64,000 bases of DNA from a bacterium. Its GTDB lineage: Bacteria; Joyebacterota; Joyebacteria; Joyebacterales; Joyebacteraceae. Location: the NCBI GenBank assembly GCA_025774935.1, contig JALGZK010000014.1:16184-80183 (forward strand), written 5' to 3'. Both the position numbers and the translations under genes were made by a program. Positions 3,445 through 10,130 of the stretch are shown one piece after another (position 1 is the first letter of the stretch; each line of letters begins with the position of its first letter). The notes below the pieces were generated by a model. That model did not search any database. It was not told where the DNA came from and was given only the letters and a program-made list of their open reading frames with translations.

Positions 3445-3819
3445 CTACCAGCACGTCGACCTCAGGAGCAGCTTGAGGCCCAGCGCGAAGAGAAGCGAGT
3501 ATGTCACGTTGACCATCGTCCCGGCCAGGAAGTAGAGCGAGTTCTTCTTCATGTCCTCACCTCTGACGATCGCCTTGCCGGCGAAGAGCACGGACAGAGC
3601 CGTGTAGGCCCCGACCATCACGAAGAGCACGATCAGGATGTTCTCGCACTTCCCGACGACCACCCCCGTGTCCCGCACCCCACGGTCCAGGTCCTCTCCC
3701 ACGTCCTTGTGCGCGATTCCGCGGAGCACTCCGCGGACGACGAAGCCGCTCGTCAGAACGAGAGCGGCACAGCCTCCAGCCATGAGTCCGAGTCCGACCC
3801 AGCTCCCCCAGCTCGTCAT
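3445..3819 (-). CDS. small membrane protein downstream of SatD-like gene
   Basis: 124-residue protein with three or four hydrophobic segments (about residues 5-28, 60-82 and 96-117) and the charged loop HKDVGEDLDRGVRD. No family recognised. Its ATG overlaps the TGA of the SatD-like gene by 4 bp (ATGA), which implies translational coupling and a shared role. In many bacteria SatD-type genes sit next to a membrane protein, usually of the DUF3307 type; this one is shorter and I cannot assign it to that family by eye. Confidence 0.75.
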   Translation of the reverse strand: MTSWGSWVGLGLMAGGCAALVLTSGFVVRGVLRGIAHKDVGEDLDRGVRDTGVVVGKCENILIVLFVMVGAYTALSVLFAGKAIVRGEDMKKNSLYFLAGTMVNVTYSLLFALGLKLLLRSTCW

Positions 3820-4484
3820 CTCTCGTCCTCCCGCTCCGCGAGGCGTCGTGCGTACTCCTCGAACTGCCTCGGGAGGTCCTGTTCGATTCGCTCCGTCTGT
3901 TTGTACCAGGACCTCCTGAGGACACTCGACACCGCCTGTTGCGTGACACCGAGTTCCCTGGCCGCCTCGGCCTGTCCCCCGGTCCGCTCGTAGACCCCGA
4001 TCACCTCGTTCTGTCGCTCCGACCGAACGTCCCGCACGATCGCGAGGAGGTTCACCTCGGCTTCGATGGCCGCGTCCAGCACGGAGTCACCCGCACGAAG
4101 CCGGAGCGCCAACTTCCGCCGCTTCAGATCGCCCATCGCTGCCGCAGCCGCGTGGAACGCCTGCCCGTCCATCAGTGCCACGTCCCCGCTGTCCAGCCCG
4201 ACGTCCACCTCGCCCCTCACCAGCACGAACCTCATTACCTCCGGCGCGATCGCCTCCAGCAGCGTCCTCATGATGTCGTACGCGCTGGCGATCGACAGCA
4301 GAACCGCTCCGATCTCGTCGACGCCCTTCAGCACCGTACACGCCGCCGCCAGCTCCCGTTCGTGGTCCCTGTTGACTGCCTCACACGCATCCGTCAGCCT
4401 GGCTCTGAACGCCTCCCGGTCACGGATTCCCCTGGAGTCACGAACGTCCCCGATGAGCACGTACCGTTCTCGCGCCATGACCAT
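3816..4484 (-). CDS. SatD-family protein with C-terminal helix-turn-helix
   Basis: 222 residues. The N-terminus (YVLIGDVRDSRGIRDRE) matches the hallmark of SatD-family proteins, first named in the Streptococcus mutans acid-tolerance sat operon; their biochemical function is poorly known. The C-terminal part contains a helix-turn-helix-like segment (GGQAEAARELGVTQQAVS, about residues 168-187), suggesting DNA binding. Either the ATG at 4484 or the one two codons later could be the start. Its stop overlaps the start of the small membrane protein. A good promoter lies about 55 bp upstream. Probably the regulator or sensor of the ABC exporter genes that follow; that link is inferred from gene order only. 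Confidence 0.78.
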   Translation of the reverse strand: MVMARERYVLIGDVRDSRGIRDREAFRARLTDACEAVNRDHERELAAACTVLKGVDEIGAVLLSIASAYDIMRTLLEAIAPEVMRFVLVRGEVDVGLDSGDVALMDGQAFHAAAAAMGDLKRRKLALRLRAGDSVLDAAIEAEVNLLAIVRDVRSERQNEVIGVYERTGGQAEAARELGVTQQAVSSVLRRSWYKQTERIEQDLPRQFEEYARRLAEREDER

Positions 4485-4695: not shown

Positions 4696-7383
4696 CTATG
4701 TCTCGTAGACGGGGAGCACTCGTCTCAGCTCTTCGTACACGGTCCCGCCTCCATCGATGGTGCCCTTGGCTGCCTGCTGGAACTCCGCCAGGAGCTCGTC
4801 GAAGTCCATCGCCTTCACGCTCTCGACGTCCCGGCCATCGCGCCCCTTGGACACCACGAACCCCGCCATGGTTTCACCAGCCATCTCACGGATGAGCTGC
4901 CAGAGCTCCTTCCCCTCCCGCGCGGCGATCGCCCGTCCGAGCGCGAGCGACAGCGAGAGGATGGCGTTCATGCCAAGGTTTCCCTTCCGCTGCATGGCTG
5001 CGATGATCTCGTCCTTCGACGCCCCGTTCGAGAGCCGCCCCGCCTGCTTCGCGGCCTCGACCTCGAGGCCGAGGAGCTTCCGATCGACGTCGAGCAGGCT
5101 CCCTAGCTCCGAGAGGCGGCGGCCGGTGAACGCTCCCGCTAGCACCGTCTCGATATGGTCGACGGCGTCCATGCAGCCCTTGCCACCGTAGCGGCAGGTC
5201 TTGCCCCAGAGGCCTTCGAGCTCCGCGTCGCCCTTCGCGCGGATGGCCGAGGTCTCGAGTCCCTTCTTGAACCGGAACGTCCCGTCCCCAGCGTCGTCGA
5301 AGAGGTCTGCGTGCCTGCCCGTGACCTCGCCGGGCCGTACGATGCTGTCGACGTAGTGAATCGCCTCGTCGAGTCCGGCGGACGTCCCGAGCGGGGTCGA
5401 GCCCTTGAACCGGATCGTCCCCGTCTTCCCGAGGAAGAGCGTCGCGGCCGCCGACGGGATCCCGGCGTTCGTCGCCTCCTCGGTACCGGAGACGCCCTCG
5501 ATCGCGAGCATCCTCAGAAGAAGGCTCGTGATGTCGATGTCCGCGGCGCCCGGAGCGAGCGAACAGTCGCCGCCTCCCGTGAGCGCGGCGACGAGGTCCT
5601 TCAGGCCGCGTTCGATCTCCGGCCGCTCCTCCGGCGTCGTCTCGCGCCCCCGCGCCTCCGCGAGCGCCAGGATCTCCATCACGCGCCCGTACTTCTGGAG
5701 TCGCTCGGTGTTCGCGCCCCCGCCCGCCTTGATCCCTAGCGTGTTCATCGCCGTCGAGATCTCGGCCTCGAACGGGTCGTTCGGCGACTTCGACCGGTGC
5801 GATACCACGAGCTCCGCGCCGTACGCGAGCGACGTCAGCATCGCGAGGATCGTCTCGGACAGCGTGCCGATCTGGTTCGCCTTGATGAGGGTCGCGTTGA
5901 TCTCGCCGTTCCTGGCCGTCTCCTCGATGGTCGAGTCCTTCGTCGTGACGAGGTCGTCCCCGATGACGAAGATGCGGTCGCCGAGCTCCTTCATGATGAG
6001 CTTCCAGCCCTCGTGGTCGATCTCGCCGAACCCGTCCTCGACCGATAGGATCGGAACGCCGTCCTCCATCGCGCCCCGGTAGAGCTCGAGGATCTCGTCG
6101 CGGCTCATGTCGACCTTCGTCTTGTCGCGCCAGAAGCGGTACATCCCGACCGAGTCCTTCTGGCCCATCTCGTCTCGGTAGGCGTTCTCGAGTTCCGACG
6201 CGGCGGGGTCGAGCGCGATCGCGACGTCGACTCCCGGCACGAGCTCCGAGTCGAGGATGGTCTGCTTCATCAGGCGCCACATCCGCTGCTCGGGCACGCG
6301 GTCGCCGGGCTCCTTGTCGATGTACGGAGCGAGTCCGCCCTCGAGCCCGACGCCCATGACCTTCGCGCCCGGCGCCGACTCGAGGATCTCCTTCAGGCGC
6401 GACTGGAGCCTCACGGTCATCTCCTGCGCTTCCTCGTACGACTCCGCGGAGAGCGGGATGAACATCGACTCCTGCATGCTGATGTTGCTCTCGGGGTACT
6501 CCTTCTCGGTGTGGCGGCCGCCCATCGCGCAGTTCCGGAACTGCCACGGCGCCTTCACCTTCGTCCCGTCCGGGAGCGCGACCTCCTGGATCCTCGTCGT
6601 CAGCATCTTCTCTTTCACGGCGCCCACCTGCGCGAGCCAGCTCTCAGCGGCGATCGCCTCGGCCGCGGCCTCGGCCTTCTCGCGCGCGATACGCTCGCGC
6701 CTCCGGAACTCCGCGAGCTTGCCGCGGTCCGCGAGGAGCCGGTCGAGGAGCCCGACGAGCCCGGGCGCGAGGAAGAGCCGGCCGACATAGGTGATCCCCT
6801 CGGCGCGCGTCGCGAGCCCCGCCGCGATGCAAACGATCCCGATCGGGAGACAGACCCACGCGAGCCGCTGGCTCCACACCGGGCCTGCCGCGGCGACCGC
6901 GAGGTTGTACGGGGCGTCGGGAGCGTAGTTCCCTTCGTCCTTCTTGACGCCCGGGAACCCGCCCCACGGGATCGTGAAGAACGCGACAACGTAGTGACCG
7001 AAGCGCTGCCCGAAGCCGCCCGCCGCGAGGGTGTCGAACCTCTCCTGCGAGTCGCGGTTGAGCGCCGCGAGCCTGCCGGCCGTGACGTAGTGCCCGAGCT
7101 CGTGCACCGCAATCGCGACGTGCCACGAGAGGTAGACGATGACCGCGCTGATCACGGTCTCCATTGAGAGGAACATGAATCGGAGCGTGCCGAGCTTCCC
7201 CTCGACCGTCTCCGGGAGGTTCAGGACCGACGAGATGAACGCGGCGTGGAACGAGACGAGCTTGTGGTTCGCGATGACCCAGCCTCGCTCGAGCATGGCG
7301 GACGCGGCGCCGCCCGTGAACCTCGAGGCGCCCCCGGCCAGGCGGCGCAGTCTCCCAGCTGTTCCCCTCACGTCGAATTTCAT
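4696..7383 (-). CDS. M50-type membrane metalloprotease fused to a circularly permuted enolase
   Basis: One uninterrupted 895-residue frame. Residues about 50-225 form a membrane region with the zinc-protease motif HELGH (94-98) and a downstream N-x6-GP segment (160-168), as in site-2-protease-like M50 enzymes; a candidate third ligand Asp lies in GLLDRLLADRG (211-221). A charged helix (225-250) leads to an enolase catalytic barrel (about 260-585). Enolase residues seen there: His291, Glu305, Glu348 in LEGG, Asp392, Glu449, Asp476 in GDD, Lys501, His529-Arg530-Ser531 and Lys552. The enolase N-terminal domain follows instead of preceding (about 620-835), with the loop Ser as Ser668 in LGTSAG and the helix LGMNAILSLSLALGRA (803-818). 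The order is therefore M50, enolase C-domain, enolase N-domain. The ATG at 7383 has a strong AGGGGGAG site; a GTG at 7413 is in frame but lacks one. Enolase activity at the membrane is inferred. Confidence 0.85.
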   Translation of the reverse strand: MKFDVRGTAGRLRRLAGGASRFTGGAASAMLERGWVIANHKLVSFHAAFISSVLNLPETVEGKLGTLRFMFLSMETVISAVIVYLSWHVAIAVHELGHYVTAGRLAALNRDSQERFDTLAAGGFGQRFGHYVVAFFTIPWGGFPGVKKDEGNYAPDAPYNLAVAAAGPVWSQRLAWVCLPIGIVCIAAGLATRAEGITYVGRLFLAPGLVGLLDRLLADRGKLAEFRRRERIAREKAEAAAEAIAAESWLAQVGAVKEKMLTTRIQEVALPDGTKVKAPWQFRNCAMGGRHTEKEYPESNISMQESMFIPLSAESYEEAQEMTVRLQSRLKEILESAPGAKVMGVGLEGGLAPYIDKEPGDRVPEQRMWRLMKQTILDSELVPGVDVAIALDPAASELENAYRDEMGQKDSVGMYRFWRDKTKVDMSRDEILELYRGAMEDGVPILSVEDGFGEIDHEGWKLIMKELGDRIFVIGDDLVTTKDSTIEETARNGEINATLIKANQIGTLSETILAMLTSLAYGAELVVSHRSKSPNDPFEAEISTAMNTLGIKAGGGANTERLQKYGRVMEILALAEARGRETTPEERPEIERGLKDLVAALTGGGDCSLAPGAADIDITSLLLRMLAIEGVSGTEEATNAGIPSAAATLFLGKTGTIRFKGSTPLGTSAGLDEAIHYVDSIVRPGEVTGRHADLFDDAGDGTFRFKKGLETSAIRAKGDAELEGLWGKTCRYGGKGCMDAVDHIETVLAGAFTGRRLSELGSLLDVDRKLLGLEVEAAKQAGRLSNGASKDEIIAAMQRKGNLGMNAILSLSLALGRAIAAREGKELWQLIREMAGETMAGFVVSKGRDGRDVESVKAMDFDELLAEFQQAAKGTIDGGGTVYEELRRVLPVYET

Positions 7384-7676
7384 CCGAATCTCCCCCTCGT
7401 GTCCGACGGGCACGCGTGACGTTACTCCGTATGCGCGGTGTACGGCAGATGGGCAGTGTACCCGATTTGGGACGCGGGGCTCAAGGGGTTCCGCAAGAGG
7501 TTCCGCGCTGTGACGGGCGGGGGCGTTCGGGCCGCCCCGAGGCGCGGGAGCCTCGTGGCGTACCCGTACGAAGAGGCCCGGCGGCCACGCGGACGCCCCC
7601 TCAGACTCCCGGGGACGGCCTCGTGACCGCCGGGTCGATGGATTTTCGACAGGTGCCTGTCGTCAGGCGGCCGGGC

Positions 7677-8459: not shown

Positions 8460-10130
8460 CTACTCCTCCGGTTCGTAGCTCCAGCCCCCCGCGCTTGGCA
8501 GCTCGAGCCCGGCCCCGTACTCGGCCGCGGCCTTACCGTCCGCCGCCTTGCCCTCCATGTGCACATGGAAGAGCTCGGGCAGCGGAAAGACGTTCCCGTT
8601 CTCCACTTCCCTGTTCTCGTAGAGCTCCTCGTAGAGCGCCCATTGGTCGTCCGACACGAGCCCTGCCTGGTGGGCCGCCTGCACGTTGGCATACGCGGCC
8701 TCCCAATAGGCTATGACCCCCTCAGGGCCTCCTCGGTTACTCAGAATCTTCGTCGTCCAGTCGTCGCCCAGCCTGTAGGCGATCACGTCGATCCCCCAGA
8801 CGGAACCGGGGACGTCGTAGTACGGATAGAGCCAGAACTTGTCGGGGTCGTCCGATGCCATCCACGCCTCTGCCTCGGGGAGCCCGTGCTCGGCTCCGTA
8901 CCGGATGATCTCGACGAGGGCCTTCTGGAGGTCCCAGATCCCGTGCCACTGCGTGTAGTCTGCGCCCATCATGAGCGCGCCGTGGCGGAAGCGCCTGCCC
9001 TCGTGGTGCCAGATGTGGTAGCTCAGCTCCTCGGGGACCTCGTCGTAGCCGGCGACCCCGAACGGTGCGAGACCCTCGAACCCCGGCGTCACGATGATCC
9101 CCGCGTCGTTCATCGCGTCGAGCCACCGCCTCCCCTCGCGGTAGATCTCGTTGTACTGGAGCGCCGCCAGGTCCCCCTCCAGGAAGTACCGGTCGACGAA
9201 CGGCCGGGCGTGGCACTGGAGACACGTTGAGACCATGTCCTCGCGCTTCTCCTGCCAGGAGAGGCCGCCGCCCCAGGCCTCGGTCGTCCGGATCGTCCAC
9301 GGCGACTGCGTCTCCCAGGCCGTCCGCGCCCCCACGTCGTGCGTCGACGGCAGGTCGACCGTCGCGTCCATGTGGCACGTCGTGCAGGTCGGCCCGTCGA
9401 GGGGCGGGGGCTCTCCCCACTCCGCGTCGTAGTCGAGGTTGTCCCAGTTCCGCGAGCGGCTCATGAAGACGTTCCCGTGCTTCGACTCCTCCCATATCTC
9501 GATGTGCGGGTGGTCGGGACCGAGGTGGCACTCCCCGCACGTGTACGGGTTCCGCGCGACGGCGACGTCGGAGGAATGAACCGGGTGGCACGCACCGCAC
9601 TCACCGACGCTCTGGTCGGGCCACATGTGGCCGATGTCGTGGCACTCCTGGCAGCCGTGCTTCGTCGCGATCGTGGGCTCGAAGACGTTCCTGTCGAACG
9701 ACGCGGCGAAGAAGATCATCGAGAGCGCGGAGTGCTTGCTCCTGCTGAACTCCTCGTACTCCCTCTCGTGGCAGGCCGCGCAGTCGCCGGCAGTGGGCTG
9801 CCGCGCTACAGATGAGCGGTAGTGCGACATGTGGTCCCACTCCCCTTCCTCGGCGGAGTGGCAGCCCATGCAGTCGACGCCCGTGGCGGCGTGCTCCGAG
9901 CGCGCCCACGCCTCGACGAGCTTGGGCGTCAAGGCGCGGTGGCAATCGACGCACGTCGACGAGCCGTCACCGACGACCGCTCCCTCGAGAAGCGCGTCGA
10001 GCCTCGCGTCGAACGTCTCCGCGAGGGCGTCCGAGCCGCCGGTCCCCCACGCTCCCGCAGGGCCGAGCGAACCCAGGACCAGAACGACGAGCGCAAGTCC
10101 CACTGCCGTCAGTGCGTGCACTGCGCGCAT
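8460..10130 (-). CDS. octaheme c-type cytochrome, hydroxylamine oxidoreductase (HAO) family
   Basis: 556 residues with an N-terminal signal peptide (about 1-27) and exactly eight CXXCH haem sites beginning at residues about 60, 87, 117, 160, 178, 198, 249 and 303. The arrangement, with all haems in the first 60% and a long helical C-terminus, fits the octaheme HAO family, as does the conserved-looking ADYTQWHGIWDLQ. Family members either oxidise hydroxylamine or hydrazine or run in reverse as nitrite/hydroxylamine reductases; which applies depends on a crosslinking Tyr and on redox partners that I cannot settle by eye. Exported to the periplasm. The ATG at 10130 has a near-perfect AGGAGGAGGTAA site that overlaps the end of the upstream phosphatase gene, so translation is coupled. 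No quinol-oxidising partner cytochrome is visible nearby. Confidence 0.88.
   Translation of the reverse strand: MRAVHALTAVGLALVVLVLGSLGPAGAWGTGGSDALAETFDARLDALLEGAVVGDGSSTCVDCHRALTPKLVEAWARSEHAATGVDCMGCHSAEEGEWDHMSHYRSSVARQPTAGDCAACHEREYEEFSRSKHSALSMIFFAASFDRNVFEPTIATKHGCQECHDIGHMWPDQSVGECGACHPVHSSDVAVARNPYTCGECHLGPDHPHIEIWEESKHGNVFMSRSRNWDNLDYDAEWGEPPPLDGPTCTTCHMDATVDLPSTHDVGARTAWETQSPWTIRTTEAWGGGLSWQEKREDMVSTCLQCHARPFVDRYFLEGDLAALQYNEIYREGRRWLDAMNDAGIIVTPGFEGLAPFGVAGYDEVPEELSYHIWHHEGRRFRHGALMMGADYTQWHGIWDLQKALVEIIRYGAEHGLPEAEAWMASDDPDKFWLYPYYDVPGSVWGIDVIAYRLGDDWTTKILSNRGGPEGVIAYWEAAYANVQAAHQAGLVSDDQWALYEELYENREVENGNVFPLPELFHVHMEGKAADGKAAAEYGAGLELPSAGGWSYEPEE

Follow-up and report, generated by a model that had tools for sequence, protein, structure and literature searches.

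A circularly permuted enolase fused to an M50-like membrane domain, likely able to replace the canonical enzyme in some bacteria

The window analysed here, the whole stretch of 64,000 nucleotides taken from contig JALGZK010000014.1 of a bacterium of the Joyebacteraceae, carries on its minus strand (7383..4696) one continuous ORF of 895 amino acids, with an ATG at 7383 and a stop codon that ends at 4696; an alternative GTG start upstream, at 7413, would add 10 amino acids. The first-pass annotation had named no strand; a plus-strand reading of 4696-7383 was rejected, as stops break the frame. Close upstream lies the gene of a multihaem cytochrome c protein with CxxCH repeats (8460-10130, minus strand), separated from the ORF by a head-GIN (DUF2807) gene. 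A SatD-family gene (3816-4484, minus strand) lies downstream, and one also adjoins the ORF homologue in genome G008, from another genus of the same family. The features of the ORF are as follows.

4696-7383, minus strand: whole ORF, M50-like domain, enolase barrel and enolase N-domain, 895 aa (Pfam and single-ORF homologues)
6664-7293, minus strand: M50-like membrane region, residues 31-240 (sub-threshold Pfam M50 match, M50 matches of homologues, AlphaFold2 helices)
7090-7104, minus strand: HELGH metal-site motif, residues 94-98, with H94, E95 and H98 invariant (alignment)
6904-6906, minus strand: N160 in NLAVAAAGP, invariant (alignment)
6742-6744, minus strand: D214, candidate third metal ligand, Asp in 44 of 45 (alignment)
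6598-6720, minus strand: positively charged helical linker, residues 222-262 (sequence, AlphaFold2 helices)
5659-6558, minus strand: enolase C-terminal TIM barrel, residues 276-575, with all catalytic residues present (Pfam, alignment, structure)
5506-5658, minus strand: linker from the ancestral C-terminus to the ancestral N-terminus, residues 576-626 (alignment, AlphaFold2 model)
4876-5505, minus strand: relocated enolase N-terminal domain, residues 627-836, with an insertion of about 35 aa (Pfam, alignment, fold)
5380-5382, minus strand: loop Ser S668 in GTSAG, the equivalent of yeast S39 in GAST, invariant (alignment)
4699-4875, minus strand: family-specific helical tail, residues 837-895 (AlphaFold2 model; poorly conserved in the alignment)

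Nearly all organisms have an enolase and, to our knowledge, it has always been seen so far as an N-domain followed by the barrel, in a soluble protein. In the window protein this order is reversed, with the barrel before the N-domain: Pfam places Enolase_C at residues 281-571 (E 1.4e-46; 159.6 bits against a cut-off of 21.5) and Enolase_N at residues 798-831 (E 3.1e-7; 31.1 bits, just under the cut-off of 35), and the Enolase_N profile matches 31 of 31 members of the permuted family at E<=0.01. AlphaFold2, run on 31 window and locus sequences, gave a model of the window protein with pLDDT 84.8 and pTM 0.82, the barrel of which aligned with solved enolases (VIA Z of about 26 over about 268 residues); a Foldseek search was also run, and enolases filled its list. 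When residues 606-845 were modelled alone (pLDDT 87.9), only enolases were found among the 50 PDB matches listed, the best of them at E 3.6e-7. Thus the order of M50-like region, barrel and N-domain on a single ORF, and the enolase N-domain fold of residues 620-835, both of which the first-pass annotation had put forward from the letters alone, are supported by Pfam placement, homologues and structure prediction.

More than 40 genomes were found to encode this order, at 46-81% identity; they come from about nine phyla or candidate phyla, with Planctomycetota in the majority. Nearly all of the complete homologues are single ORFs. When 84,980 named genomes were scanned, relatives turned up at 42 loci; these belong mostly to Planctomycetota (Phycisphaerae, Sedimentisphaerales), and further to WOR-1/Margulisbacteria/Saganbacteria, Verrucomicrobiota, Fermentibacteria, Dehalococcoidia, Cloacimonadota, Spirochaetes and WOR-3. 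That the ORF is an assembly chimera, or a frameshift joining three genes, has nothing in its favour beyond the odd architecture, and we consider it refuted, since dozens of assemblies (some 40 genomes other than that of the window) independently contain the gene at full length; the first-pass annotation had named a chimera as a danger to its reading, and it is these copies that dispose of it. No viral contig encodes a relative, so that a viral origin was rejected, and plasmid records gave canonical-type barrel matches only, none covering 80% of the query.

In a tree of the enolase parts all permuted proteins form one clade (100/100), which a very long stem joins to the canonical enolases. The position of the window protein in that tree, among planctomycete sequences, makes lateral transfer likely. 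Within the window's family, the genome from another genus mentioned above (G008) encodes the entire protein as one ORF (81% identity), and a genome of the window's own genus (G002) encodes its first 450 residues before the contig breaks off (89% identity). A sister species in that genus (G001) keeps only a remnant (L027:11975-12193) that encodes residues 823-895, the last 73 codons, directly after the same head-GIN gene. This is a partial deletion in a genome that has kept its canonical enolase, and it shows the gene to be dispensable where the canonical enzyme is present. Beyond these four genomes the permuted protein was not found in the rest of the family. Five WOR-1/Saganbacteria members (L055, L056, L058, L060, L066) share a C-terminal extension of about 210 residues after the N-domain, for which, in L055, NCBIfam gave no convincing match.

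The distribution of the permuted protein is complementary to that of canonical enolase. The window genome (G000, 40 contigs) does have a canonical enolase as well, encoded separately on contig C25 (432 bits), a point that the first-pass annotation had left to be checked. Canonical enolase is nevertheless absent from 8 of 17 genomes that carry the permuted protein, two of which are Phycisphaerales genomes in the form of single-contig chromosomes of 5.84 and 6.20 Mb (CP070678 and CP070675); these two have adjacent canonical GAPDH and PGK genes, plus iPGM, and an independent Enolase_N search found no canonical N-domain in either. Among 148 Phycisphaerae-class genomes, six are without canonical enolase, and five of the six carry the permuted protein (G102, G152, G158, G231, G235), all five with canonical PGK; the sixth, G188, has neither enolase, and one further genome, G099, has both. 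Fisher's exact test of the permuted protein against canonical-enolase absence gives p about 6e-8 (1.3e-6 without the seed genome G102), with the caveats that the genomes are not phylogenetically independent, that G099 was known beforehand to carry a homologue and that G150, with three matches, is not fully resolved. Overall the permuted protein is the sole enolase found in about a dozen genomes, and several lineages hold both enzymes. These counts come from genome searches, most of the host genomes are MAGs, and enolase genes can be missing for other reasons too, as shown by G188 and by a genome of the window's family (G003, recorded as 100% complete), in which PGK and GAPDH are present and no Enolase_C match of any kind was found. 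As the permuted protein is the only enolase left in several bacteria, it probably does the job of enolase, from the membrane.

The residues of the enolase part agree with such a role. In a 46-row alignment H291, Q304, E305, E348, D392, E449, D476, K501, H529, R530, S531, K552 and S668 are invariant wherever they are covered, so that the catalytic residues of the barrel and the loop Ser of the relocated domain, which the first-pass annotation had listed as kept, hold in all homologues covering them. By alignment, their equivalents in yeast numbering are H159, Q167, E168, E211, D246 and E295 for the first six, and D320, K345, H373-R374-S375, K396 and S39 for the others. Ka/Ks of the window gene against two relatives is 0.22 and 0.24. 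The coexistence of a canonical enolase in the window genome might be taken to mean that the permuted protein is a dead enolase, kept as a structural scaffold without catalysis; this we regard as very improbable, because none of the homologues examined shows decay of a catalytic residue and the protein serves about a dozen genomes as their only enolase.

Gene neighbourhoods offer some further, lineage-limited, support for an enolase role. At the window and at most planctomycete loci the neighbours are unrelated to glycolysis, and no operon or partner gene is shared across the planctomycete loci, whose neighbours are each specific to a lineage (RNase III, STAS, small membrane proteins). At six WOR-1/Margulisbacteria/Saganbacteria/spirochaete loci the gene adjoins divergent PPDK-like genes, with further neighbours that vary by genome: PGM-, PGK-, GAPDH- and TIM-like, class I aldolase-, FBPase- and PFK-like. 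In L058/L122 a same-strand run of PPDK-like, PGM-like and permuted enolase genes brings together the enzymes that flank the enolase step. This glycolytic set is not general: G103 and G109 alone have a PGK-like relative, and G109 alone has a clear divergent GAPDH.

Divergent paralogues of central-carbon enzymes are clustered at L118/L119 (G103 C21:82000-121999), L120, L121, L122, L124 and L125, in WOR-1/Saganbacteria and a spirochaete. They include PPDK-like genes without a detected C-terminal domain, TIM-, PGK- and class I FBA-like genes, class III FBPase-, PFK- and GAPDH-like genes and one for a POR-like protein; some of the genomes also hold canonical copies. These clusters are possibly a second glycolysis/gluconeogenesis set.

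Activity and substrate of the permuted protein are inferred, and its loops leave room for doubt. Most permuted members have a 5-residue insertion (GGRHTEKEYPESN) in loop 2, the HRSGET of canonical loop 3 reads HRSKSP in the permuted family, and the N-domain carries family-specific insertions of about 35 and about 20 residues; the barrel of the window protein is 36% identical to that of its own genome's canonical enolase. Because of the loop 2 insertion and HRSKSP the substrate could differ from that of canonical enolase. The protein might then be an enolase-superfamily enzyme for some other phosphorylated 2-hydroxy acid, its pocket widened or changed by the altered loops 2 and 3, with PEP being made otherwise where canonical enolase is lacking. 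The conservation of these family-specific changes, the long stem branch and the retention of both enolases in several lineages would fit this. However, of the enolase residues that contact 2-PG only one is changed, the Ala of the GAS loop, which is Thr here; the distribution is complementary to that of canonical enolase and the PGM-like and PPDK-like neighbours would supply and use exactly 2-PG and PEP; a different substrate thus seems to us quite unlikely, and an enolase acting on 2-PG remains the reading that we prefer.

The membrane part of the protein is less securely placed. The Pfam Peptidase_M50 profile matches residues 89-270 with 21.7 bits for the full protein and 22.9 for the fragment, below the cut-off of 27.2, and 17 of 23 homologues match it at E<=1. 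H94, E95, H98 and N160 are invariant in the 46-row alignment and D214 is Asp in 44 of 45; helices are predicted by AlphaFold2 at residues 74-104, 161-192 and 195-218 of this part, so that both an HExxH in a predicted membrane helix and an Asp ligand in a later helix are present. A profile search of PDB sequences gave no solved M50 structure for this part, and whole-model structure searches had their match lists filled by enolases. Membership of M50 therefore rests, at the level of sequence, on a sub-threshold profile match and on motif conservation, and the first-pass description of an M50-type intramembrane protease stands as far as the metal-site residues go but does not reach the family's score. 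The conserved site suggests a second activity of the protein, as yet unproven, with no substrate or cleavage data, and any role of the site is inferred. The side of the membrane is inferred likewise: positive charge after the last membrane helix, together with the substrate of enolase, would put the enolase part on the cytosolic side.

This conserved site also admits a membrane regulator, in which an active M50 intramembrane protease, upon binding of PEP or 2-PG by the enolase part, either sets that part free or cleaves a substrate. A pure anchor would not need H94, E95, H98 and N160 to be invariant, and D214 nearly so, in distant members. We nevertheless think such a regulator unlikely: no substrate, no partner gene common to the lineages and no cleavage data are at hand, and complete catalytic conservation, together with service as the sole enolase, points to selection for catalysis, although regulation would not exclude enolase activity. 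The first-pass annotation had offered both an enolase at the membrane and an enolase-fold regulator cleaved by its own protease; the former is favoured by homologues, conservation, structure prediction and the loss of canonical enolase, and for the latter no supporting evidence was found.

We therefore propose, with good though not complete confidence, that the window ORF encodes a membrane-anchored, naturally circularly permuted and catalytically competent enolase, able to replace the canonical one, its activity and substrate being inferred. It would interconvert 2-phosphoglycerate and phosphoenolpyruvate by the usual enolase chemistry, with Mg2+ bound by the loop Ser and by the barrel's three acidic residues, and with Lys as the base and Glu as the acid. 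The permutation would have put the barrel first and the N-domain second, with a linker of about 50 residues bridging the ancestral termini, such that the N-domain may cap the barrel from its new C-terminal position, while the M50-like multi-helix domain would anchor the enolase to the inner membrane on its cytosolic side. In some hosts the protein would be the sole enolase of the cell, and in the window genome a second one beside the canonical enzyme. A fuller picture, in which the sole permuted membrane enolase of several lineages is coupled to an active M50 intramembrane protease, with the flux of glycolysis or gluconeogenesis both organised and regulated at the membrane and with further divergent glycolytic partners in WOR-1/Saganbacteria, is one that we entertain only tentatively; it could hold, and on balance we doubt it.

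If our proposal is true, a natural permutation, held by a single ancient clade that spans many phyla and capable of standing in for the canonical gene, is a new solution for a core enzyme, and places a glycolytic step at the membrane beside a conserved metalloprotease-like site. It is also an annotation trap: genomes with the permuted protein are scored as lacking enolase. The first-pass annotation knew of no membrane-tethered, permuted enolase joined to a site-2-like protease, and no description of a permuted or M50-fused enolase was found in the literature searched; a paper on Margulisbacteria/Saganbacteria treats ordinary glycolysis only (PMC6349859).

Compared with known systems, the membrane part resembles peptidase family M50 (site-2 protease type, PF02163) in the HExxH of a predicted membrane helix, the NLAVAAAGP-like second helix and the Asp of the third, and differs from it in its profile score below the Pfam cut-off, in the absence of an LDG/DG motif and in being fused to an enolase. 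The WOR-1/Saganbacteria and spirochaete genes, lying among PPDK-, PGM-, PGK- and GAPDH-like genes, recall clusters of PPDK with lower glycolysis, but there the neighbours are divergent paralogues, and the window and planctomycete loci are without such context. With canonical enolase (phosphopyruvate hydratase, TIGR01060; Enolase_N PF03952 plus Enolase_C PF00113) the window protein shares both folds and all catalytic residues; it differs in the reversed domains, the N-domain and loop 2 insertions, HRSKSP, the membrane domain in front and a TIGR01060 score of 195.8 bits, below the equivalog cut-off of 300. Since it meets the catalytic and fold criteria, and fails those of canonical order and equivalog score, we file it as a new permuted enolase variant and not as a canonical equivalog.
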